Positions 28,168 through 38,786 of a DNA stretch of 64,000 nucleotides are shown here, one piece after another. Made by a program: the position numbers and the translations under genes. This DNA is from Actinomycetes bacterium (GTDB lineage Bacteria; Actinomycetota; Thermoleophilia; RBG-16-64-13): NCBI GenBank assembly GCA_024637095.1, contig JAGXFV010000049.1, positions 1 to 64,000 of the forward strand, in the 5' to 3' direction. Each line of letters opens with the position of its first letter. Position 1 is the stretch's first letter. A model generated the notes under the pieces. It saw only the letters and a list, made by a program, of their open reading frames with translations. It was not told the origin of the DNA and ran no database searches.

Positions 28168-28281
28168 TTCGTCGCCTCCTAGCTCCATCAACATCTCGAG
28201 ACCGCCCCTTTGTCCGGCGGCTCTCAGGGTCCTTCCCCTGTTATGGAAAGAGCGAGTAGATGCCAGGAAGGGAGAAAGCTT

Positions 28282-30276
28282 TTGAGCGAAAAGAAGATGT
28301 TCACCGTGATTTTCCAGCCCTCGGGAAGCCGGGGCAAGGTTGAGGAGGGAACCCCGGTTCTGCAGGCAGGACGGGATCTCGGTGTCGAAATCGAAGCCAT
28401 CTGCGGCGAGAAGCGAACCTGCGGCAAGTGTAAGATCCGTGTCGAAGAAGGCTTTTTCGAGCGCTACGGAATCGAATCCGCGGCGGACCACGTCTCCAAG
28501 TGGCGGCCGGTCGAAGAGAAATTCATCAATGAAAAGCGCCGCGAAGAGGGCTACCGGCTGAGCTGTGTGGCCAAAGTCGACGGCGATCTGGTCATCTTCG
28601 TCCCCGAGGAAAGCCGCTCCGGCGGCCAGGTGGTGCGCAAGGCCGCCACCGACCGTAAGATCGAGGTCAACCCGTCGATTAACACCTACTACGTCGAGTT
28701 GGTCCCCCCCACCCTCCACGATCCGCTGGGCGACTATGAGCGCATGGTCGAGGGACTCAAGGAGCAGCACGGTCTCGAAGAGCGGCCCAGGATCGACTAT
28801 CAGGTGCTGCGTACGTTGCCCGACGTCATCCGCGAGGCTCACTGGAAGGTCTCGGTTGCCATCTGGGACGGTGACGGCTTCCCGGAGATCGTAAAAGTGA
28901 CCCCGGGTAAGGTCGAGCGCAGCCTCGGGCTTGCCGTGGACGTGGGTACTACCACGGTCGCCGCCTACCTTTGTGACCTGCACACGGGTGAGGTGCTGAA
29001 CACCGACTCCATGATGAACCCGCAGGTACCTTACGGCGAAGATGTGATGAGCCGGATCACCTACGCGATGTCCCACCCCGAGGACGGCATCAAGAAGTTG
29101 CAGGACGCCATCATCGAGGGCATCAACACGATCGCGGCCCGGGTTACTGAGGCGGTTGGCTTCACCCATCGCGACATCCTCGAGATGACGATCGTGTTCA
29201 ACACCGCCATGCACCACTGCTTCCTAGGGATCTACCCTGAGCATCTGGGTCTGGCTCCATACGCCCCGGCGTTGCACCATTCGATGAACATCAAGGCGCG
29301 AGATCTCAAGCTGGACTTCGCTCTAGGTGCCAACGTGTTCGTGCTGCCCAACGAAGCCGGCTTCGTTGGCGCGGATAACGTCGGTGTGCTTATCGCCGAA
29401 GCGCCGTACAACCAGGACGAGAAAGTGCTGATCATCGACATCGGCACCAACGGCGAGCTCATCATGGGCAACCGGCAAGAGCTGATCTCCTCGTCCTGCG
29501 CTACGGGTCCCGCGCTCGAAGGCGCGCACATCAAGTACGGGATGCGGGCGGCTCCGGGAGCGATCGAGAGGATCTACATCAATCCGGAGACCAAAGAGCC
29601 GCGCTACAAGGTGATCGGCAAGGAAGAATGGTCCGATCAGATTCCGCAGGGAGAAATCGGCACCAAGGGCATCTGCGGCTCGGGCATCATCGATGCCATC
29701 GCCGAACTCTTCAAGGCCGGCATCATCGACAAGACCGGCAAGTTCGTCAAGGGTATGGACGAGCAGTACGAGCGGATCCGCAGAGGCGACGACGGCATGG
29801 AATACGTGCTGGCCTGGGCCGATGAGACCTCGATCCACCAAGACGTGGTCATCACTATCAAGGACGTCCGTTCGGTACAGCTTGCCAAGGGCGCGCTCTA
29901 CGCCGGCGCCAAGATCATGATGCAGAAGCTCGGGTACGAGTCGCTGGACAAGGTCATTCTGGCCGGCGCCTTCGGTTCGTTCATCGACCGGGAGGAATCC
30001 CTTGTAATCGGGATGTTCCCCGACGTGCCTATCGCCAAAGCCTACGCGGTCGGTAACGCGGCCGGCGACGGTGCCCGGATGGCTCTGCTCGACAAGAGCA
30101 AGCGTGCCGAAGCCGACGAATGGGCCCGCAAGGTCGAATACATCGAGCTCTCGGTGGAGCCGAAGTTCGAGAAGGAATTCATGATGGCGATGCATCTGCC
30201 GCACATGAAGGACAAGTTCGGACACTTGGCGGAAGGTCTGGAAGGCGAAGGCCTCGACGGACTCGTCAAGGCTTAA
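28282..30276 (+). CDS. Reductive activator of corrinoid proteins (RACE)
   Basis: A 664-residue ASKHA-type activator that uses ATP to return inactive cob(II)alamin in corrinoid proteins to cob(I)alamin. An N-terminal [2Fe-2S] ferredoxin-like domain has Cys in ICGEKRTCGKCKIRV and a later LSCVAKVDGDLVIF. The ATPase part carries LAVDVGTTTVAAYLCDL, IDIGTNGELIMG and ILAGAFGSFIDREES. TTG at 28282 is chosen because GGGAG lies 8 nt upstream; ATG 28297 is possible. First gene after the cobalamin riboswitch and 14 nt before the MtrH-like gene. Confidence 0.93.
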   Translation: MSEKKMFTVIFQPSGSRGKVEEGTPVLQAGRDLGVEIEAICGEKRTCGKCKIRVEEGFFERYGIESAADHVSKWRPVEEKFINEKRREEGYRLSCVAKVDGDLVIFVPEESRSGGQVVRKAATDRKIEVNPSINTYYVELVPPTLHDPLGDYERMVEGLKEQHGLEERPRIDYQVLRTLPDVIREAHWKVSVAIWDGDGFPEIVKVTPGKVERSLGLAVDVGTTTVAAYLCDLHTGEVLNTDSMMNPQVPYGEDVMSRITYAMSHPEDGIKKLQDAIIEGINTIAARVTEAVGFTHRDILEMTIVFNTAMHHCFLGIYPEHLGLAPYAPALHHSMNIKARDLKLDFALGANVFVLPNEAGFVGADNVGVLIAEAPYNQDEKVLIIDIGTNGELIMGNRQELISSSCATGPALEGAHIKYGMRAAPGAIERIYINPETKEPRYKVIGKEEWSDQIPQGEIGTKGICGSGIIDAIAELFKAGIIDKTGKFVKGMDEQYERIRRGDDGMEYVLAWADETSIHQDVVITIKDVRSVQLAKGALYAGAKIMMQKLGYESLDKVILAGAFGSFIDREESLVIGMFPDVPIAKAYAVGNAAGDGARMALLDKSKRAEADEWARKVEYIELSVEPKFEKEFMMAMHLPHMKDKFGHLAEGLEGEGLDGLVKA

Positions 30277-30290
30277 GGGGGGTTCAACAA

Positions 30291-31280
30291 ATGGCAGATG
30301 CTACAGGCTCAGGATCCAAGATGTTCAACTTCGACACAGAGCAGAAGGTGTTCGAGATCGCAGGGATCAAGGTGGGCGGGCAGCCGGGGGTCAATCCTCC
30401 CCTGCTCATTCCCTCCATGTTCCAGAAGGGCGATCCGGCCATCGAAAGTCGCCGGCAGCGCAAGTTCAATAAGCAGTTGGCCGGGGACAACATCAAGCGG
30501 ATGGAAGAACTGTCCGAGATGACCGGCATGCCCGCACTGGTGGCGATGGTGGCCAATCAGGGCGAAGAGATGAAGAACTACATCGACTTCTACGTGGAGG
30601 CCACTGATCTTCCTTTCGCTATCGACATGTGGAACCTGGATCCTCGGATGGAGGCCACCAAGTACGTGGCCGAGCAGGGACTGCAGGACCGACTCCTCTA
30701 CAACTCCGTTACGGTGTGGAGCCCGGACGTACCTGCCGAGGTCGAGCTGATCAAGGAACTCGGCGTGAAGCACGTGGTCACAGTGGTCATGGACATGGTC
30801 AACCAGACCCCCAGCGGTCGCCTGAGCTCTCTCGACGATATGTTGGACAAGATGAAGCCCGGTGAGTTCGAGAGCATCCTGGTAGACACCTCGGTCATGA
30901 ACCTGCCGGCCACCGGCATATGTGCCCTGGCCAACCGGTTGGTCAAGGAGAAGTACGGGCTACCCGCCGGTGCAGCATCGGCCAACGGCACTTATATGTG
31001 GCAGAAGTCGACCTACCGGGACAATAGGGAGAAGTGGGGCGAGAACGCATTCGTCGGCCTCGACGCCGGCACGCACGCCGCCTCGGTAGCCCTTTGGGGC
31101 GACTTCATCTTCAGCGGCCCGATGTGGGGCATTGACTCGGTCTTCCCGGCCGTGGCCGCCGCGCACTCGATGGTCAGCCTGATGAACTGGGCGGAGACGG
31201 GTGAACTGACTCAAAACGAGTCGACGCCCCTACACAAGTTGTGGCCGGATTATGTCAAGACACTCAAGGGTGAAGAGTAA
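30291..31280 (+). CDS. MtrH-family methyltransferase (corrinoid to pterin)
   Basis: A 329-residue protein related to tetrahydromethanopterin S-methyltransferase subunit H. It starts MFNFDTEQKVFEIAGIKVGG after a short leader, the family N-terminus, and keeps ELSEMTGMPALVAMVANQGEE and the TIM-barrel pattern. In bacterial corrinoid systems these enzymes move the methyl group from methyl-corrinoid protein to tetrahydrofolate. Spacing to RACE is 14 nt. The pterin acceptor (tetrahydrofolate) is inferred. Confidence 0.88.
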   Translation: MADATGSGSKMFNFDTEQKVFEIAGIKVGGQPGVNPPLLIPSMFQKGDPAIESRRQRKFNKQLAGDNIKRMEELSEMTGMPALVAMVANQGEEMKNYIDFYVEATDLPFAIDMWNLDPRMEATKYVAEQGLQDRLLYNSVTVWSPDVPAEVELIKELGVKHVVTVVMDMVNQTPSGRLSSLDDMLDKMKPGEFESILVDTSVMNLPATGICALANRLVKEKYGLPAGAASANGTYMWQKSTYRDNREKWGENAFVGLDAGTHAASVALWGDFIFSGPMWGIDSVFPAVAAAHSMVSLMNWAETGELTQNESTPLHKLWPDYVKTLKGEE

Positions 31281-31317
31281 ACCCGGCCAAACGAGCGAAA
31301 AGGAGCAGGACGAACAC

Positions 31318-32361
31318 ATGACTATGACGCACAAGGAACGGGTTCTCAAGACGATCAAAGGGGAGCCGGTCGATAAGATGCCGGCGTTCACCGGGTTCGG
31401 CGCGGTCCTCGTCGAGGGGCTGGAGAAGTACGGTCTGCGCTTTGCCCATGTCCACCTGGACGCGGACGAAATGGCCAAGGCTGCAGCGGCGACGAGCGAG
31501 TTGGCCGGCCTCGAGGCAATCGTGGTGCCGTTCGACATGGGCGTGGAGGCCGAAGCTCTGGGCGCTACGCTCAACACCTACCCGCACTCCGAGGACCTTC
31601 TCTACCCCACGCTGCGCGACAAGTTCGTGCATACGGCGGATGACATCAACCTGCCCGCGGACATCGCGAACGCGGGTCGCGTGCCCCTGGTGACAGAGGC
31701 CATCAAGAAGCTCAAAGAGCAGTACGGCGAAGAATACGCCGTGGCGTCCTGGGTGCTCGGTCCCTTCACCTTGGCCGGCCAGGTGATGGACCTGAACGAA
31801 CTGCTGAAAATGAGCTTCAAGGAGCCGGAAAAGGCTAACGCCATCCTCGACAAGCTGAGCGACATGATCATCGGTGTGGGTAAGGCCTATATCGCCGCCG
31901 GTGCGGACTACCTCTCGCTCCGCGAGATGGGAGCCACCTCCGACGTGCTCTCGCCTCGGGCCTACAAGAAGCAAATCAAGGGCTTCTCGCAACGCATCGT
32001 CGAGGAACTGAAGGCAACGGGCGTGCCCATCGTCTACCATATCTGTGGCGACACCAACATGATCATCGAGGATATGGCGGAACTCGGTGCCGACGCGGTC
32101 TCTGTGGACCAAAAGAACGACCTCAAGGCCAGCCGGGAGAAGCTGGGCGACGAGGTGGTCCTTCTCGGCAACATAAATCCCTGGGATGTTTTCACCCAAG
32201 GGAGCAAGGAAGACGTTCAGCGCGAGGTTAGGGCGTCAGTGGAGGCGGGCGCGGACGCGGTCTGGCCCGGCTGCGACATCTGGCCGACCACTTCGACCGC
32301 GAACATCAAGACCTGGGTGGAAACCAGCCACGAGCTGACACCTCGGCGGAACGGCGCCTAG
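31318..32361 (+). CDS. MtaA/UroD-family corrinoid methyltransferase (Cys form)
   Basis: A 347-residue uroporphyrinogen-decarboxylase-fold methyltransferase. The zinc ligands of the MtaA/MtbA type are present: His and Cys in YHICGD near residue 241, and the C-terminal Cys in WPGCDIWPTTSTANIK near 322. Such enzymes activate a thiol or transfer methyl groups to or from a corrinoid protein. It lies between the MtrH-like gene and the corrinoid protein. It is the internal control for the Sec-containing relative at 34140, where the C-terminal Cys position is TGA. Confidence 0.88.
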   Translation: MTMTHKERVLKTIKGEPVDKMPAFTGFGAVLVEGLEKYGLRFAHVHLDADEMAKAAAATSELAGLEAIVVPFDMGVEAEALGATLNTYPHSEDLLYPTLRDKFVHTADDINLPADIANAGRVPLVTEAIKKLKEQYGEEYAVASWVLGPFTLAGQVMDLNELLKMSFKEPEKANAILDKLSDMIIGVGKAYIAAGADYLSLREMGATSDVLSPRAYKKQIKGFSQRIVEELKATGVPIVYHICGDTNMIIEDMAELGADAVSVDQKNDLKASREKLGDEVVLLGNINPWDVFTQGSKEDVQREVRASVEAGADAVWPGCDIWPTTSTANIKTWVETSHELTPRRNGA

Positions 32362-32373
32362 AGATAGACTATC

Positions 32374-32396
32374 GGCCCCGGCCTCAGGCCGGGGCC
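32374..32396. repeat. Intercistronic hairpin before the corrinoid-protein gene
   Basis: GGCCCCGGCC and GGCCGGGGCC form a perfect 10-bp stem around a TCA loop. There is no T-run. It may stabilise or attenuate the mRNA between the MtaA-like gene and the corrinoid protein gene. Confidence 0.6.
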
Positions 32397-32433
32397 CCGG
32401 TATCCAAGAGAACACGTAAAGGGAGAACAACAC

Positions 32434-33099
32434 ATGGGATCCGACGAGCGCAAGCAGGAACTTTTCGGCAAGATGAAGGAAGGCGTCATCGAGTACGACG
32501 AAGACCAAGTCGTCGAGGCCGCCAATGCCCTGGTCGACGAAGGCTTCGATGCCTACGAGGGCATCATGGACGGCCTGGCCGCCGGCATGGAAGTCGTCGG
32601 CGAACTGTTTGATAGTCAAGAGTACTTCGTTCCCGAAGTCCTGATGTGCGCCGACGCCCTGTACGCCGGCCTCGATATCCTGCGTCCCAGAGTGGACATG
32701 ACAGGCCGCGAGGCTGTCAAGGGCGAGGTAGTGATCGGTGTGGTCGAGGGCGACGTGCACGACATCGGCAAGAACCTCGTGAAGATGATGTTCGAGGTCG
32801 CCGGCTTCACCGTACACGACCTGGGCGCGGACGTGCCGATCGACGAGTTCGTAGAGAAGCAGATCAACACCAACTCGGACATCGTGGCCTTGTCCGCCAT
32901 GATGACCACCACCATGATGGGTATGAAGAAAGCCATCGTGAAGCTGAAGGAAAAGAACCCGGACGTCATGATCATGCTGGGCGGCGCCCCGGTTACCGGC
33001 GAGATCGCCGACATGTTCGGTGCGGATGGCTACTCCGAGAACGCCTCCAACGCGGTTTCCGAGGCGATCAAGATGGTGGCTGCACTCCGCAAGATGTAG
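32434..33099 (+). CDS. Methyl-accepting corrinoid protein (MtbC/MttC-like)
   Basis: A 221-residue B12-binding protein. The N-terminal helical cap domain spans about residues 1-90. The Rossmann-like cobalamin domain starts KGEVVIGVVEGDVHDIGKNL, with the lower-axial-ligand His in DxHxxG, followed by LSAMMTTTMMGMKKAI and MLGGAPVTGEIADMFGADGY. It shuttles the methyl group between the methyltransferases and is reactivated by RACE. Strong hairpins lie on both sides of the gene. Confidence 0.95.
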   Translation: MGSDERKQELFGKMKEGVIEYDEDQVVEAANALVDEGFDAYEGIMDGLAAGMEVVGELFDSQEYFVPEVLMCADALYAGLDILRPRVDMTGREAVKGEVVIGVVEGDVHDIGKNLVKMMFEVAGFTVHDLGADVPIDEFVEKQINTNSDIVALSAMMTTTMMGMKKAIVKLKEKNPDVMIMLGGAPVTGEIADMFGADGYSENASNAVSEAIKMVAALRKM

Positions 33100-33113
33100 T
33101 AGCTCTAAGAGCA

Positions 33114-33144
33114 GGCGGCCGGCGGACAAAAGCCGCCGGCCGCC
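33114..33144. repeat. Intercistronic hairpin after the corrinoid-protein gene
   Basis: GGCGGCCGGCGG and CCGCCGGCCGCC form a perfect 12-bp stem around ACAAAAG, 15 nt after the stop codon. No T-run follows; it may protect the upstream mRNA. Confidence 0.65.
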
Positions 33145-33179
33145 GCGAACGGGGGGGCTGTTTAATCAGACACGGGCCT

Positions 33180-33914
33180 TTGGCACTCGTAGACCGTCGG
33201 ACCGGACTGGTCGAGACGATAGAGGAACTCGCACTGGATTGCGGCGTGGATGTCTTGGGCTTTGGGGACGTGAGCGAGGCCCTCCCCCCGGGTTTCGCTC
33301 ATCTTCCCGTTGGAGTCTCGGTCGGAGTGGCCCTCGGGCAGAGCCCTGGTGGCCCTGCCCGTTACGATCACCGCGACGCCCAGATACAGAGCATTCTGGA
33401 TGAGGCCCTTAGGGAGATCGCTGCCTTCCTCCGCTTGCGAGCGTACCGGTATTTCTGCTGTCCCGCCGAGTGCGACCCCATGGAATCACCGTTCACCGCC
33501 CGGATGGCGCATCGGTTCTCTCACAAGGCTGCGGCGACTTGCGCGGGCCTCGGCTGGGTTGGACGCAACGGGCTGTTGATCCACCCCGAGCTCGGTCCCT
33601 ACGTGTCCTGGGCCACGGTTGTCACGAACGCGCCCTTGCCTCTGGGGGACCCGTGGATCGAAGGACAGTGTGGCAGTTGCACGGCCTGTGCCGAGGCCTG
33701 TCCCGCGGGGGCAATCAGCGGGAGGGTTTGGCGGAGGAGCCATGGCATGCGCCGATTGGTTGACGCCGACCGCTGCCGGGGCTCTTTGGACGTTGTGGAA
33801 AGGGAAACGGGCTCTCGCGTCTGCGGTCGGTGCGTAGTTGCCTGTGCGTCCGTCTATCGGGAGAAGAGCGCCGTTGGACGTACGGGCCTTGAGTTAGATT
33901 GGTCTAACCTATAA
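33180..33914 (+). CDS. QueG-like iron-sulfur protein
   Basis: A 244-residue protein similar to epoxyqueuosine reductase. It has the RFSHKAAATCAGLGWVGRNG and LLIHPELGPYVSWATVVTN segments and a ferredoxin-like cluster site CGSCTACAEACPAGAI plus CGRCVVACAS, enough for about two [4Fe-4S] clusters. QueG enzymes bind cobalamin, and QueG-like proteins occur in other corrinoid loci. The start is uncertain: TTG 33180 is the best placed, but no ribosome site is clear. It may donate electrons to corrinoid factors rather than make queuosine. Confidence 0.72.
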   Translation: MALVDRRTGLVETIEELALDCGVDVLGFGDVSEALPPGFAHLPVGVSVGVALGQSPGGPARYDHRDAQIQSILDEALREIAAFLRLRAYRYFCCPAECDPMESPFTARMAHRFSHKAAATCAGLGWVGRNGLLIHPELGPYVSWATVVTNAPLPLGDPWIEGQCGSCTACAEACPAGAISGRVWRRSHGMRRLVDADRCRGSLDVVERETGSRVCGRCVVACASVYREKSAVGRTGLELDWSNL

Positions 33915-34139: not shown

Positions 34140-35225
34140 ATGGGTAAGCAAGCTGTCTTGGATGCATACCAAGGCAAGTACACGCCAGTAGTGCCTTGGG
34201 TGCCGTATGTGGGTGTCCATGCGGGCTATCTGATCGGAGAGCCGGCGGACAAGCTCCTGCAGGACGCCGACCTGCTGGCCAAGGGCGTCCTGAACGCCGC
34301 CGAGCGCTACAATGCCGACGGCATTCCCCTCGCCTTTGACCTCGCCATCGAGGCCATGTCGATGGGTATCGAGGCGAAGTGGTTCCCGGACAATCCGCCG
34401 ACGGTGATCGACCATCCGCTGCAGCATAAGACCATGGCGGAAGCCGATCTGAAGGTGCCGGGCCCGAAAGATGGTCGCTGGCCGTTGATTATCGAGGCCG
34501 GCAAGAAGGTGAAGGAGCAACTCGGGGACCGTGCCCTGATCGGGTTGACCTGTGGTCCTCTGACCCTCGCCTCTCACCTGCGCGGCGCCAAATTCTTCAC
34601 GGACATGGTGAAGAAGCCCGAGTTGGCTGCCGAGATCATGGAGTTCGCGGCTCTCGTGACCAAAGAGTCGGCGCGAATCTACGCGGAAGAAATCGGCTGT
34701 GACATCGTCGCTTTGGTGGAACCCGTGGGTAGCCAGGTGCGCCCGGAGACGTACGACAAGTTCGTGATTCCCGCGTGCCAGCCGGCTCTCGAAACGATTC
34801 ACGCGGCCGACAAGGTCTCCGCCTTGTACATCTGCGGCGACGCCACCAAGATCGTCGAGAACATGATGTACACCGGCGCGCACGCCGTGTGCGTGGACGA
34901 GCAGCTCAACATGAACTACATCCGCGATTGCGCCCTCAAGTATGGTCGCGGTTTCGCCGGCAACCTCAAGCTGACCCTCGCCCTCTCCCTGGGTCTCGTC
35001 GACCCGCGTGAAGACGCTATCGTCAGCTTGGCGGCCGGTGGGAAGATCGGGTTCACCTTCTCCCCTGGCTGAGACATGCCTTACGACGTTCCAGTTGAGA
35101 ACGTGGATAAGGTTCTGGAAGCCAAGACCTGGTACGAGCAGTACTACGCCCATTACCCGAACGTGCCCTACCCGTCGATCGAGCCCAAGAAGACGCCGGC
35201 GGAACCGATCGTGGAGGTGAGCTAG
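34140..35225 (+). CDS. Selenocysteine-containing UroD/MtaA-family methyltransferase
   Basis: Read to the first TGA (35070-35072) this gives 310 residues ending GKIGFTFSPG. Read through the TGA as Sec it continues DMPYDVPVENVDKVLEAKTW and ends at TAG 35223, for 361 residues. SPG-U-D...P.ENV is the family's C-terminal zinc-ligand motif, with Cys replaced by Sec at residue 311; the relative at 31318 has PGCD there. The other ligand region is LYICGD: Cys is kept but the usual His is Tyr. AAGGAGG precedes ATG 34140. It is likely the substrate-facing methyltransferase of the locus; the substrate is unknown. No selenocysteine machinery genes are in the window. Confidence 0.88.
35070..35120 (+). promoter_or_regulatory. 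Sec TGA codon and candidate SECIS of the UroD-family gene
   Basis: TGA 35070-35072 is followed by AGAAC (35098-35102) pairing with GTTCT (35112-35116) around GTGGATAAG. The loop begins with G, 30 nt after the codon, inside the range used for bacterial SECIS models. A competing stem ACGTT/AACGT (35086/35100) exists. This is the weakest of the five SECIS candidates; the protein-level evidence is stronger. Confidence 0.5.
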
Positions 35226-35573
35226 TTGGCTGAAAACGACAAGATTGTTGTTGAAGTCCTGACACTAGACTCTCTGCAGTGACCGGCGTGCGGGTACATG
35301 GTCGATGTACTTAATTCACTGTCGCCGGAAGTCAAGGACATAATCGATTACAAAGAGTGGTCCATCAAGAACGCCGAAGGTATCGGCATGTTCATGGAAC
35401 GCAAAGGCCGCGTCCTGCCCACTCTTTGCATCGGGGAACAGCTCTGCTACGAGAGCGTCATCCCCACGATCGACGAGCTCTACGAGACGTTGATCGACAA
35501 CGCCAAGAGCGAAGAGCAGAAGACGATTCTCAAGACCTCGTACGACGAGTTCCTGGAGGAGTACAACAAGTAG
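35226..35573 (+). CDS. Thioredoxin-like selenoprotein 1 (UPAC motif)
   Basis: A 115-residue protein starting at TTG 35226, directly after the TAG of the previous gene, with GGAGGTGA five nt upstream. In-frame TGA at 35280 gives VVEVLTLDSLQ-U-PACGYMV, a UxxC redox site after the first beta strand, followed by LPTLCIGEQLCYESVIPT with the cis-Pro position of the thioredoxin fold. Without read-through only a start-less downstream fragment from 35298 remains. A textbook SECIS follows the TGA. Likely a thiol/selenol reductant or metal(loid)-handling protein for the neighbouring enzymes. Confidence 0.88.
35280..35310 (+). promoter_or_regulatory. Sec TGA codon and SECIS of thioredoxin-like selenoprotein 1
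   Basis: TGA 35280-35282 is followed by GTACAT (35294-35299), loop GGTCG (35300-35304) and ATGTAC (35305-35310), a perfect 6-bp stem. The loop starts 18 nt after the codon. Both loop sequence and spacing closely resemble the E. coli fdhF SECIS, whose loop is GGUCU. Confidence 0.88.
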
Positions 35574-35660: not shown

Positions 35661-35774
35661 ATGCAGGACATCCTGATCGAAGTATTGACCCTCGACTCCA
35701 AGCAATGACCATGTTGCTGGTACTTGGTCGATGTACTCGAGTTCAACGAGCGGCGCATACCGATGAGCAGTTGA
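35661..35774 (+). CDS. Thioredoxin-like selenoprotein 2 (UPCC motif), short or degenerate
   Basis: ATG 35661 has GGGAGG just upstream. Reading TGA 35706-35708 as Sec gives MQDILIEVLTLDSKQ-U-PCCWYLVDVLEFNE, closely parallel to the first 30 residues of the copy at 35226. The frame then stops at TGA 35772 after 37 residues. In the +2 frame a protein-like tail (RAAHTDEQLTVREGARQHVL) runs to TGA 35822-35824, which overlaps the ATG of the next gene. A frameshift in a full-length ancestor would join them. Alternatives: a real short selenopeptide, a programmed frameshift, or a second Sec. The SECIS is conserved. Confidence 0.6.
35706..35736 (+). promoter_or_regulatory. Sec TGA codon and SECIS of thioredoxin-like selenoprotein 2
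   Basis: TGA 35706-35708, then GTACTT (35720-35725), loop GGTCG (35726-35730) and ATGTAC (35731-35736). The stem has one T-T mismatch. Loop sequence and the 17-nt gap to the codon are identical to the copy at 35280. Confidence 0.78.
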
Positions 35775-35823: not shown

Positions 35824-36390
35824 ATGGCGGTTCGGCGCGTAGCGCTGCACGCCTGCGGGGGAATTACCCGCCCCGGCTCCACGGTCGCGCGGCTGGCGGT
35901 CTATTACGTCGCCGAGGAGTTGCTCCCCGAGAAGGCGCTGGTTTCCTGCGCTCCCGCCTTTCTCCGCGGAGTCGAGGAAGACGTTCTCATGGTGCAGAAG
36001 AGCCCCTCCATCGCCCTCGACGGTTGCGAATGGAGTTGCGGCACGAATCTGCTCTATCTGGCCGGCATCATCCCGGCCGCCCGCATCCTCATACCCGAAT
36101 ACGCGGAGGCTTGCGGGTACGATTTGACCCAGGTGAATCTGCGCTTCCCCACGGGAGTGGGCCGCGATCTGGCGTGGGCAGTCGCGGAGAGGATAGCCGC
36201 GATCGGCAGGGGTATGCTCGAACGGGGGAGCGACTATCGCTTCGAGCGGCCGGGGATCGTCCGCCGCCAGGGGGAGTGGTTCCGTCCGGCGCCCAATATG
36301 GAGGGGGCCTTGGAGTTCGTTCGTCTGGAGCCGGGAGTCTACCGGCCCGTGGGGATGCCGCCTCTTCCCGAAGAGTCAAGGGAGGCCTGA
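35824..36390 (+). CDS. DGC-domain putative metal-binding protein 1
   Basis: A 188-residue protein with the DGC-type putative zinc-binding pattern: an early ALHACGGITRPGSTVARLA, a Cys at LVSCAPAF, and ALDGCEWSCGTNLL near residue 65, plus Cys in EACGYDL. Its ATG overlaps the TGA of the preceding frame (tgATG). It is paralogous to the next gene. DGC proteins are of unknown function but have conserved cysteines suited to metal or thiol chemistry; context suggests handling of a metal(loid) or selenol intermediate. Confidence 0.78.
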   Translation: MAVRRVALHACGGITRPGSTVARLAVYYVAEELLPEKALVSCAPAFLRGVEEDVLMVQKSPSIALDGCEWSCGTNLLYLAGIIPAARILIPEYAEACGYDLTQVNLRFPTGVGRDLAWAVAERIAAIGRGMLERGSDYRFERPGIVRRQGEWFRPAPNMEGALEFVRLEPGVYRPVGMPPLPEESREA

Positions 36391-36395
36391 GCGCT

Positions 36396-37013
36396 GTGGT
36401 GGAGAAGGTCACTGTCTTTCCGTGTGGCGGAATCGGGGACCCGGTTTCCTCGGTGACCCGGCTGGCCGGTTATCTGCTGGCCGAGGATCTGCTGCCGGGC
36501 CGGGTGGAGTTGGTATCCATACCGCCGGTAGTAACCGGCGTCCCCGACGAACTGCGGTTGGTGCAGGAGTATCCGGTGATCGTTCTCGACGGCTGCTCGC
36601 ACCGGTGCGGGTCGAACGCGCTCAACCTGGTTGGGATTCGCCCCGCGGCGCGACTGCTGACTCCGCGCATTCGCAGCCAGACGAAGCACGCGGTCGGCCG
36701 ACGCCGTCCGTATCCGGAGACCTCGGGTCAAAAGCTGGCCAAGGCCCTGGCGGAGAAGGCCGCGGCTGTGGCTCTCGGTATGCTCGAGGATGAGTCCTAC
36801 GCCTTCGAGACTCAGCGGGTGAGCCCAAACCCCGAAGGGTTGATCGACGACACCTTCGACATCGAACGGGGCCTTGGCTATGAGGAAGTGCAGGTCGGCT
36901 GCTTCCATTGCAGCGGCATGTGCGCGTTCAAGCTCAAGGACGATCCGGAGTTGCGGCGCAGGTTGGAAGAAGAGGTCGCGGAGTTCGAGCGCCTGGAGGA
37001 TATCGAATGCTAG
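36396..37013 (+). CDS. DGC-domain putative metal-binding protein 2
   Basis: A 205-residue paralogue of the preceding gene: VFPCGGIGDPVSSVTRLAGY, LDGCSHRCGSNALNLVG, and an additional C-terminal VGCFHCSGMCAFKL cysteine cluster absent from the first copy. GTG 36396 (or 36399) follows GGGAGG. The last 7 nt overlap the following selenoprotein gene, so translation is coupled. Function unknown; the extra CxxCxxxC suggests a second metal or Fe-S site. Confidence 0.78.
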   Translation: MVEKVTVFPCGGIGDPVSSVTRLAGYLLAEDLLPGRVELVSIPPVVTGVPDELRLVQEYPVIVLDGCSHRCGSNALNLVGIRPAARLLTPRIRSQTKHAVGRRRPYPETSGQKLAKALAEKAAAVALGMLEDESYAFETQRVSPNPEGLIDDTFDIERGLGYEEVQVGCFHCSGMCAFKLKDDPELRRRLEEEVAEFERLEDIEC

Positions 37014-37243
37014 ACGAAGGTCCCCAAGGCCCTTTCAAACTACGGCTGATGGGTTGAGTGACCTGCGGGCCGGCCGTGCGCCGGGTTCTCGAGGATTCGC
37101 TCGAGGTCGAGTTGGTCGAGATGGTCTGGGAGGAGCACTGGGCCGACGTCCGTTTTGCCTCGCCGGAGTTCGGCGTGGAGGAATTGCGGATGCGGCTCGT
37201 GCCCGCGGGCGCCTGGTGCGGCCCCTGGCCGGAAGAGGCCTAA
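37007..37243 (+). CDS. Small selenoprotein with UVTC motif
   Basis: A 78-residue protein. ATG 37007 lies inside the end of the DGC gene with GGAGG at 8-9 nt. In-frame TGA 37055-37057 read as Sec gives FKLRLMG-U-VTCGPAVRRVLED, a UxxC site at the start of a helix as in redox-active folds, then ends with RLVPAGAWCGPWPEEA. Codon use around the TGA is continuous. A SECIS-like stem follows at the same spacing as in the thioredoxin-like genes. I do not recognise the family beyond this. Confidence 0.78.
37055..37084 (+). promoter_or_regulatory. Sec TGA codon and SECIS of the UVTC protein
   Basis: TGA 37055-37057 is followed by CCGGC (37070-37074), loop CGTGC (37075-37079) and GCCGG (37080-37084). 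The loop begins 18 nt after the codon, exactly as in the 35280 and 35706 elements. G is the second loop base. Confidence 0.68.
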
Positions 37244-37272: not shown

Positions 37273-37569
37273 ATGCTGACGGTCCAGGTTATTTCCGAGG
37301 GCGGGCACTGCGTTCCCTGAATCATGGCGATCGAGGCCACCAGGGAGGTGGCTGCGGAATTCGGCCAGGCGGCCGTGAAGGTGGAGGTGGTCACCCTCAA
37401 GGAAGCCGAGGGAGCCGCGCGCTACCGTGAGCTTCGGCGCCAGGCCGGCGAACACCTGCCGGTTCCCAGCGTGCTGGTGGAGGGGGCTCTGGCCTTTTCC
37501 GCCATCCCCGAGCCGGATGAGTTGCGTGAGGTTTTCCAGCGGGCGCTCTTCAAGCAAGGCGGCGACTAG
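37273..37569 (+). CDS. Thioredoxin-like selenoprotein 3 (CVPU motif)
   Basis: A 98-residue protein from ATG 37273. In-frame TGA 37318-37320 read as Sec gives TVQVISEGGHCVP-U-IMAIEA, a CxxU site after beta strand 1 and before a helix. Later HLPVPSVLVEGALAFSAIPE has the cis-Pro strand of a thioredoxin fold. Only a downstream fragment is visible if the TGA is taken as stop. The end overlaps the GTG of the next gene by one base (TAGTG). The reversed order (CxxU against UxxC in the other copies) suggests a distinct redox role. Confidence 0.85.
37318..37352 (+). promoter_or_regulatory. Sec TGA codon and SECIS of the CVPU protein
   Basis: TGA 37318-37320, then GCCACC (37336-37341), loop AGGGA (37342-37346) and GGTGGC (37347-37352), a perfect 6-bp stem. 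The loop starts 22 nt after the codon and has G at position two. Confidence 0.72.
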
Positions 37570-38786
37570 TGCTCTACCTCGAAGGCTTCTACGGGCAGCG
37601 CGTGCGTGTGCCTGAGGACCGCCGCTACGATCCTGAGCGCGAACTCTGGCTGCTCGAGGGGGACGGCCGGGTGGTTCTGGGACTCACCCACGCAGGCGTT
37701 GTGTTGTCCGGGGGAATCGAGGACCTCATGCTCGAGGCGGAGGTCGGCCAGGACATCACTGTTGGCGAGCGACTGCTATCGGTCGAAGCGTACAAGGCAG
37801 CCCAGGAAATCACGTCACCGCTGGCCGGACGTCTGGTGGCGGTGAACCGGGAAGTACTGGACAACCCGGAATTGCTGGACGAAGATCCTTATGGAGTCGG
37901 CTGGCTTATGGAATTGAAGCCGAAGCCCGTGAGCGGCGCCACACTGGCCGGATTTCCCACCGCGAACGACTATCTGCGCGCGCTGGAGTCCTCCTGCGCG
38001 GCGACTGACGAGGGGGGCGTCACCGGGGAGTCGGATCTGGGAAACGCCTCGGGGGCTGGGGTCGAGAGCGTGGCCGGCGCTTCGCCCAAGGACGGCCTGT
38101 GCGCCGAGGTCAAACGTGCCACAGTCGCGGACTGCAGCGTCCCTGTTGCTCTCGCTCGCCTGGCTCCGGGAATGAAGGTGATCAATCTGGGGGCACGGGC
38201 CGGGGAAGACGCCGTACTCACCGGCGCGCGGGTAGGCCCGGAAGGGCGCGTCCTGGGAATCGTCCCGACCGACTCCATGCTCGAACGGGATCGGTTGGCG
38301 GCGACGGACGCCGGGCTCGAGAACGTGGAGTTTCGGTCGGGGGAGATCGAGCAGATCCCCGTAGTGGACGGGTGGGCGGATATGGTTATCGCCGGTTGCG
38401 CTGTTAACCTCTCGGCGCGTAAGGACCGGGCATTCGCCGAGGTCTTCCGGGTTCTCGGAGATGGCGGTCTGCTGGCGATCTCTGACATGGTTGTCATCAA
38501 ACCGCTTCCCCCTTTTCTCTCGCGAAATCGTGCGGCCCGCTCCAGTCTCTTAGCACACGCCGTCTCCTTGGAAAAGTATCTGGCGCTCATCGAGCGGGCG
38601 GGATTCATGCGCCCCAAGGTCGAGCAGCTCATCGAGTATTCGAGCGAGCAGTTGGAGACCCTGATGGGCATGGACCTGCGGTCCTTGGAATCGGAGGGCC
38701 GAATGGCAAAGGAGGACCTGGCGCTACTCGAGGGGCGTGTGGCGAGCGCCCACATTTTGGCGCTCAAGGTTCGCTGCAACTGCTAG
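37569..38786 (+). CDS. GcvH-like lipoyl domain fused to ArsM-like methyltransferase
   Basis: A 405-residue two-domain protein. Residues ~1-125 resemble glycine-cleavage H protein, with a candidate lipoyl Lys76 in SVEAYKAAQEITSPLAGRLV and the NPELLDEDPYGVGWL motif. After a linker, residues ~175-400 resemble arsenite methyltransferase: LAPGMKVINLGARAGEDAVL, VEFRSGEIEQIPVVDGWADM, IAGCAVNLSARKDRAFAEVF. The acidic SAM-ribose residue after motif I is replaced (GIVPTDSML), so catalytic competence is uncertain. The chain ends CNC. GTG 37569 overlaps the previous stop, and its stop shares CTAG with convergent rlmN. It may present a dithiol arm to a metal(loid) methyl intermediate. Confidence 0.82.
   Translation: MLYLEGFYGQRVRVPEDRRYDPERELWLLEGDGRVVLGLTHAGVVLSGGIEDLMLEAEVGQDITVGERLLSVEAYKAAQEITSPLAGRLVAVNREVLDNPELLDEDPYGVGWLMELKPKPVSGATLAGFPTANDYLRALESSCAATDEGGVTGESDLGNASGAGVESVAGASPKDGLCAEVKRATVADCSVPVALARLAPGMKVINLGARAGEDAVLTGARVGPEGRVLGIVPTDSMLERDRLAATDAGLENVEFRSGEIEQIPVVDGWADMVIAGCAVNLSARKDRAFAEVFRVLGDGGLLAISDMVVIKPLPPFLSRNRAARSSLLAHAVSLEKYLALIERAGFMRPKVEQLIEYSSEQLETLMGMDLRSLESEGRMAKEDLALLEGRVASAHILALKVRCNC

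Follow-up and report, generated by a model that had tools for sequence, protein, structure and literature searches.

Known HMA proteins and corrinoid gene clusters

HMA proteins such as MerP, CopZ and Atx1 hold one soft ion between the two thiolates of loop 1 and hand it on by ligand exchange. The family described here, found in the window (the whole 64,000-nucleotide stretch of DNA that was analysed), resembles this class (PF00403) in its predicted beta-alpha-beta-beta-alpha-beta fold, in its length of about 70 residues and in having the metal loop in register. It differs in a predicted selenocysteine (Sec) for the first Cys, with (L/M)xGUVTCG in place of GMxCxxC, and in additional invariant WxxHW and AWCxxW segments, and it remains below the Pfam cut-off. 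A second relative is NF041115, a UxxU metal-binding (seleno)protein of the 'putative mercuric reductase' family and likewise a small HMA-like selenoprotein. The window family has one Sec (UxxC, with UVTC in all six members) instead of the two of UxxU, and the window protein reached E 0.0053 and 16.9 bits against this model, whose cut-off is 95.

Passages of PMC13188914 and PMC2398784 give Sec-containing HMA-like proteins as earlier predictions, namely the UxxU protein NF041115, a 'MerP' and a cation-transporting P-type ATPase. According to the descriptions in these passages, the selenoprotein 'MerP' of marine metagenomes (PMC2398784) and the Sec-containing ATPase (PMC13188914) resemble the window family as carriers of the mercury or heavy-metal kind. 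The ATPase is a membrane pump, whereas the window family is a free-standing domain.

For the operon, the nearest described systems are the type 1 mlp clusters of Kountz and Balskus, which were proposed to handle methyl-sulfur or methyl-selenium compounds (PMC10418091). Both have a corrinoid protein, a reductive activase, several MtaA-like (UroD superfamily) proteins and a link to Sec-using genomes (PMC10418091), a comparison made at the level of gene classes. Unlike these clusters, the window operon also contains MtrH-type, GcvH-related, HMA and thioredoxin-like selenoprotein genes and two DGC genes. Its features, apart from the HMA gene, are as follows.

28210..33914, + strand: upstream corrinoid methyl-transfer genes (RACo-type activase, MtrH-type, MtaA-type, MtaC-type corrinoid protein, QueG-like ferredoxin)
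34140..35225, + strand: MtaA/CmuA-type (UroD superfamily) methyltransferase, UroD2, with in-frame TGA 35070-35072 (SPGUDMP) conserved in 6/6 genomes
35226..35573, + strand: thioredoxin-like predicted selenoprotein (LDSLQUPACGYM), TGA 35280 conserved in 6/6, weak NF047660 match
35824..36390, + strand: DGC-domain protein 1 (DGC1, PF08859), ending in a true TGA stop
36399..37013, + strand: DGC-domain protein 2 (DGC2, PF08859), co-occurring with the HMA gene
37273..37569, + strand: HUIPC-type thioredoxin-like predicted selenoprotein (GGHCVPU), TGA 37318 conserved in 6/6
37569..38786, + strand: GcvH-related protein fused to an ArsM-like methyltransferase domain

The upstream genes are parts of a corrinoid methyl-transfer pathway. 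Judged from sequence, what appears to be new is a single-Sec UxxC HMA protein, far below the NF041115 cut-off, encoded in a corrinoid methyltransferase operon alongside three further genes with an in-frame TGA. Part of the operon may already be covered in the selenoprotein-neighbourhood work of Haft and colleagues.

The in-frame TGA of the HMA gene

The HMA gene at 37007-37243 is real, and its elements are listed below.

36995..36999, + strand: Shine-Dalgarno-like sequence GGAGG, 7 nt upstream of ATG 37007
37007..37243, + strand: predicted HMA-domain selenoprotein gene, 78 aa, start ATG, stop TAA 37241-37243
37055..37066, + strand: UVTC codons, from in-frame TGA 37055-37057 (predicted Sec17) to Cys20, where HMA proteins have the CxxC metal loop
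37070..37084, + strand: candidate bSECIS hairpin CCGGC-CGTGC-GCCGG, 5 bp, G at loop position 2
37211..37228, + strand: A69-W70-C71-x-x-W74 codons, after helix 2 (alignment of six proteins)

With TGA read as U, the translation is MLDEGPQGPFKLRLMGUVTCGPAVRRVLEDSLEVELVEMVWEEHWADVRFASPEFGVEELRMRLVPAGAWCGPWPEEA. The ATG at 37007 precedes, and the gene overlaps, the stop TAG 37011-37013 of the DGC gene; with GGAGG 7 nt upstream, this agrees with the start inside the DGC gene and the strong ribosome site noted in the initial annotation.

A search of relatives recovered the same gene from five other genomes of the same family, all Actinomycetota MAGs, with products 56-78% identical to the window protein. 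Each of the six genes contains exactly one in-frame TGA, at the same place before VTC, and neither TAA nor TAG occupies this position in any of the six genomes. Around it, the six-protein alignment is conserved as LxL(R/M)GUVTCG(P/S)AVRR. The late AWCGPW segment that had been picked out from the single sequence recurs in 6/6 proteins as A-W-C-x-x-W (A69, W70, C71 and W74 invariant in the alignment), and WxxHW, including His44 and Trp45, is equally invariant. One weak TGA-bearing match (L007) was rejected as chance.

We compared the nucleotide changes on the two sides of the TGA. The seven codons before it had changes of 42/29/62 by codon position (39 synonymous, 42 non-synonymous), and the codons after it 173/143/352 (224 synonymous, 246 non-synonymous). 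Codons -16 to -8 had 79/94/97 (13 synonymous, 114 non-synonymous) and look unconstrained. Because the third-position excess occurs on both sides of the TGA and is absent farther upstream, the reading frame continues across the TGA, with constraint setting in at approximately the first strand. The initial annotation had let its reading depend on conservation of the 16 residues upstream of the TGA; the first nine or so vary and the seven before the TGA form the conserved first strand, which leaves the reading standing.

TGA is also a plain stop within the operon: it ends DGC1 in the window, and the HMA gene itself stops at TGA in three relatives (L003, L004, L006). General reassignment of TGA is therefore unlikely. 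The window's own genome encodes tRNA-Sec (74.9 bits) and SelB (over cut-off); SelB exceeded its cut-off in 6/6 carriers and tRNA-Sec was found in 5/6.

The candidate hairpin has its loop beginning on the 18th nt after TGA 37055-37057 and is paired in 97% of cells over the six genomes. By a simple score, 102 of the 1633 TGAs of the window are followed by a hairpin that equals or betters it, the folding z-scores (-1.3 to -0.3) are weak, and the single compensatory change was often matched by shuffles, covariation not rising above them. By itself the hairpin is weak, statistically undistinctive evidence for Sec. The 18-nt spacing had been described as common to both thioredoxin-like genes; it was recovered for the gene at 35226 but not for the gene at 37273, whose loop begins at nt 22 in the fold.

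Could the TGA instead be a real stop that closes a 16-residue leader, with a separate start at GTG 37058? The use of TGA to end another gene of the operon and the unexceptional hairpin would fit. Against this stand a position that is TGA in 6/6 genomes and never TAA or TAG, in-frame coding constraint upstream of it, the loss of the first strand of the HMA fold that a start at 37058 would entail, the Sec machinery, and the same conserved TGA pattern in three neighbour genes. We consider a real stop extremely improbable. From the conserved TGA, the two-sided coding constraint, the Sec machinery and the use of TGA as a stop in the same operon, we conclude that TGA 37055-37057 almost certainly encodes selenocysteine, in line with the small UVTC selenoprotein that had been proposed.

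Family assignment and predicted fold

The window protein alone had no Pfam match, and the initial annotation had left its family unrecognized. NF041115 was matched by 5/6 members (best E 2e-4) and was the only family model matched by most of them; PF00403 (HMA) matched 3/6 (best E 0.062) without reaching the curated Pfam cut-off, and the MerTP and CopZ models matched some of the six. All HMA-model matches are weak (E 2e-4 to 0.06) and all lie under the curated cut-offs. When the six-protein profile was compared with the PDB, MerP was the best chain (E 0.016), aligned without gaps over residues 15-68 and with UVTC on CAAC.

The profile was also run over ~800 genomes of the class and phylum. The few matches other than orthologues included HMA domains at the N-terminus of P-type ATPases, their GMxCxxC in register, and UVTC aligned gap-free with the CPSC of a CopA-type ATPase. 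Stretches of SecA and homoserine dehydrogenase among the matches were set aside as chance.

AlphaFold, given the six-sequence alignment, predicted a beta-alpha-beta-beta-alpha-beta fold with a mean pLDDT of 84. HMA domains made up 49 of the best 50 Foldseek matches and also dominated the VIA-align list, in which MerP 1osd had a Z of 8.5 over 70 residues at 2.3 A; a Z near 8 is by itself middling. Despite the missed Pfam cut-off, sequence, motif register and predicted fold agree, and for this reason we assign the protein to the HMA domain. By profile, predicted structure and the register of UxxC with the CxxC of MerP and CopA, it is an HMA domain whose first metal-site Cys is predicted to be replaced by Sec (UxxC for CxxC). 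A NifU-like scaffold domain, guessed from GxUxxCxxA, was abandoned in view of the profile and fold results.

A Cys version (GCVTCG), suggested as a check on the Sec reading, was found neither in a scan of the species collection nor in the profile search of ~800 genomes; the sixth locus of that scan (L036) was a chance match. Cys at the Sec position occurred only in distant HMA proteins (MerP, CopA-type), and no close Cys orthologue was found. In these searches the UxxC HMA gene was confined to one family. The named records that carry it are metagenome-assembled Actinomycetota, one of them labelled Thermoleophilia.

Operon context and possible function

The gene order corrinoid protein, QueG-like, UroD2, thioredoxin-like, DGC1, DGC2, HMA, HUIPC-type thioredoxin and GcvH-related is kept in all five relatives' loci; in some of them, additional genes separate the corrinoid protein from the QueG-like gene. 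UroD2, both thioredoxin-like genes and the HMA gene have one TGA each in 6/6 loci. The RACo-type activase, MtrH-type methyltransferase and MtaA-type protein lie upstream in the window and in L031; these two loci also have the GcvH-ArsM-like fusion, and the GcvH-related protein stands alone in L032. Of 18 family genomes, 6 have the HMA gene, and exactly these 6 have DGC2; the chance of this would be 1 in 18,564 if the genes were independent, a value overstated given shared ancestry. A CobW-related protein is encoded just upstream of the operon in L032 (3786-4433), L033 and L035; it resembles the selenoprotein family NF041053 (129 bits, cut-off 180) and has no TGA inside the listed frame.

In the alignment with MtaA 4AY7, the predicted Sec of UroD2 falls on the Cys of LAPGC, a residue that serves MtaA as a zinc ligand. 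UroD2 may represent a new selenoprotein family, being absent from the portion of the PMC13188914 selenoprotein table that was available. Behind the first thioredoxin-like gene, 35661-35771 holds a truncated copy of its 5' part, TGA included (LTLDSKQUPCCWYLVDVL), which then runs out of frame and, from its sequence, looks like a decayed copy. The HUIPC-type gene at 37273 matched NF047660 with E 1e-26 and 92.9 bits against a cut-off of 105. Elsewhere in the window's own genome (L068, G000:C2:162329-162586) and in its sister genome (L069) lies another HUIPC-like gene that contains an in-frame TGA. At the HMA-HUIPC junction of L005/L035, the HUIPC start and Sec motif are in different frames across a G run, pointing to either a genuine frameshift or an error of one base in the sequence. 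The phylum was also sampled for further HUIPC-type genes that might mark an operon holding a more distant HMA gene, and the genomes covered had none.

We propose that the product is probably a small single-domain HMA protein (MerP/CopZ/Atx1-type) that uses its UxxC loop as a carrier for a soft metal or metalloid. Sec in the first position would give a selenolate-thiolate pair, favouring soft metals and metalloids, and Sec17 and Cys20 would together hold one soft ion, organometal or metalloid. The cargo would be passed by ligand exchange to or from an operon partner, for which the Sec-containing MtaA-like methyltransferase and the DGC proteins are the likeliest candidates, and the two thioredoxin-like selenoproteins may keep the UxxC site reduced. 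Loops 3 and 5 of HMA domains lie on the same side as the metal loop. On loop 3, the turn that joins strands 2 and 3, fall the invariant His44 and Trp45; Ala69-Trp70-Cys71, also invariant, follows helix 2 on loop 5.

None of the operon genes was recognized as a metal transporter or metal resistance gene, and the carriers do not have mercury genes in common, so the proposed carrier function rests on fold and motif. A mercury-specific role was not supported, with HgcA over cut-off in 1/6 carriers and MerA in 1/6; the MerB search was silent in carriers and in all control genomes alike. The HgcA-type mercury methylation corrinoid protein of the one carrier is encoded at L082 (G004:C26:127315-128280).

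The same HMA fold and Sec would also be compatible with UxxC as a redox pair, a selenenylsulfide/dithiol switch that reduces the Sec methyltransferase or a methyl-sulfur or methyl-selenium intermediate of the operon. The invariant Cys71 could point to such chemistry and might take part in the switch. According to PMC13188914, selenoproteins usually have UxxC as their redox motif; the two thioredoxin-like neighbours, and the lack of a metal resistance gene that consistently accompanies the HMA gene, fit as well. The fold and the nearest relatives, however, are those of metal carriers and not of thiol oxidoreductases, and two thioredoxin-like proteins are already encoded in the operon. We regard a redox function as rather unlikely, though it is the chief alternative to the carrier function.

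Also rather unlikely is a specific form of the carrier function, a dedicated Sec metallochaperone for corrinoid chemistry in which the UxxC HMA protein would deliver to, or take from, the Sec-liganded metal site of UroD2. The cargo would then be a soft metal, a metalloid or its methyl compound, and the genes would form a four-selenoprotein pathway not described before.

We know of no HMA protein that acts as a selenide carrier, and the likeness of the operon to type 1 mlp clusters is at gene-class level; a carrier of selenide, persulfide or methylselenol for a type 1 mlp-like methyl-selenium/methyl-sulfur pathway is improbable. What speaks for it are the corrinoid protein, the activase and two MtaA-like proteins nearby, and the proposal that related clusters act on methyl-sulfur and methyl-selenium compounds (PMC10418091).

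With the predicted soft-metal or metalloid carrier, uncultured Actinomycetota would have a free-standing metal-carrier domain whose metal loop contains Sec and which current family models do not reach. The same protein would also link a selenium HMA domain with a corrinoid methyl-transfer pathway, through a conserved operon in which four genes contain a TGA. Whether Sec acts as a metal ligand or as a redox residue has seldom been tested. The 78-residue protein offers a compact test case, and the operon a physiological setting for asking whether Sec serves as a metal ligand.
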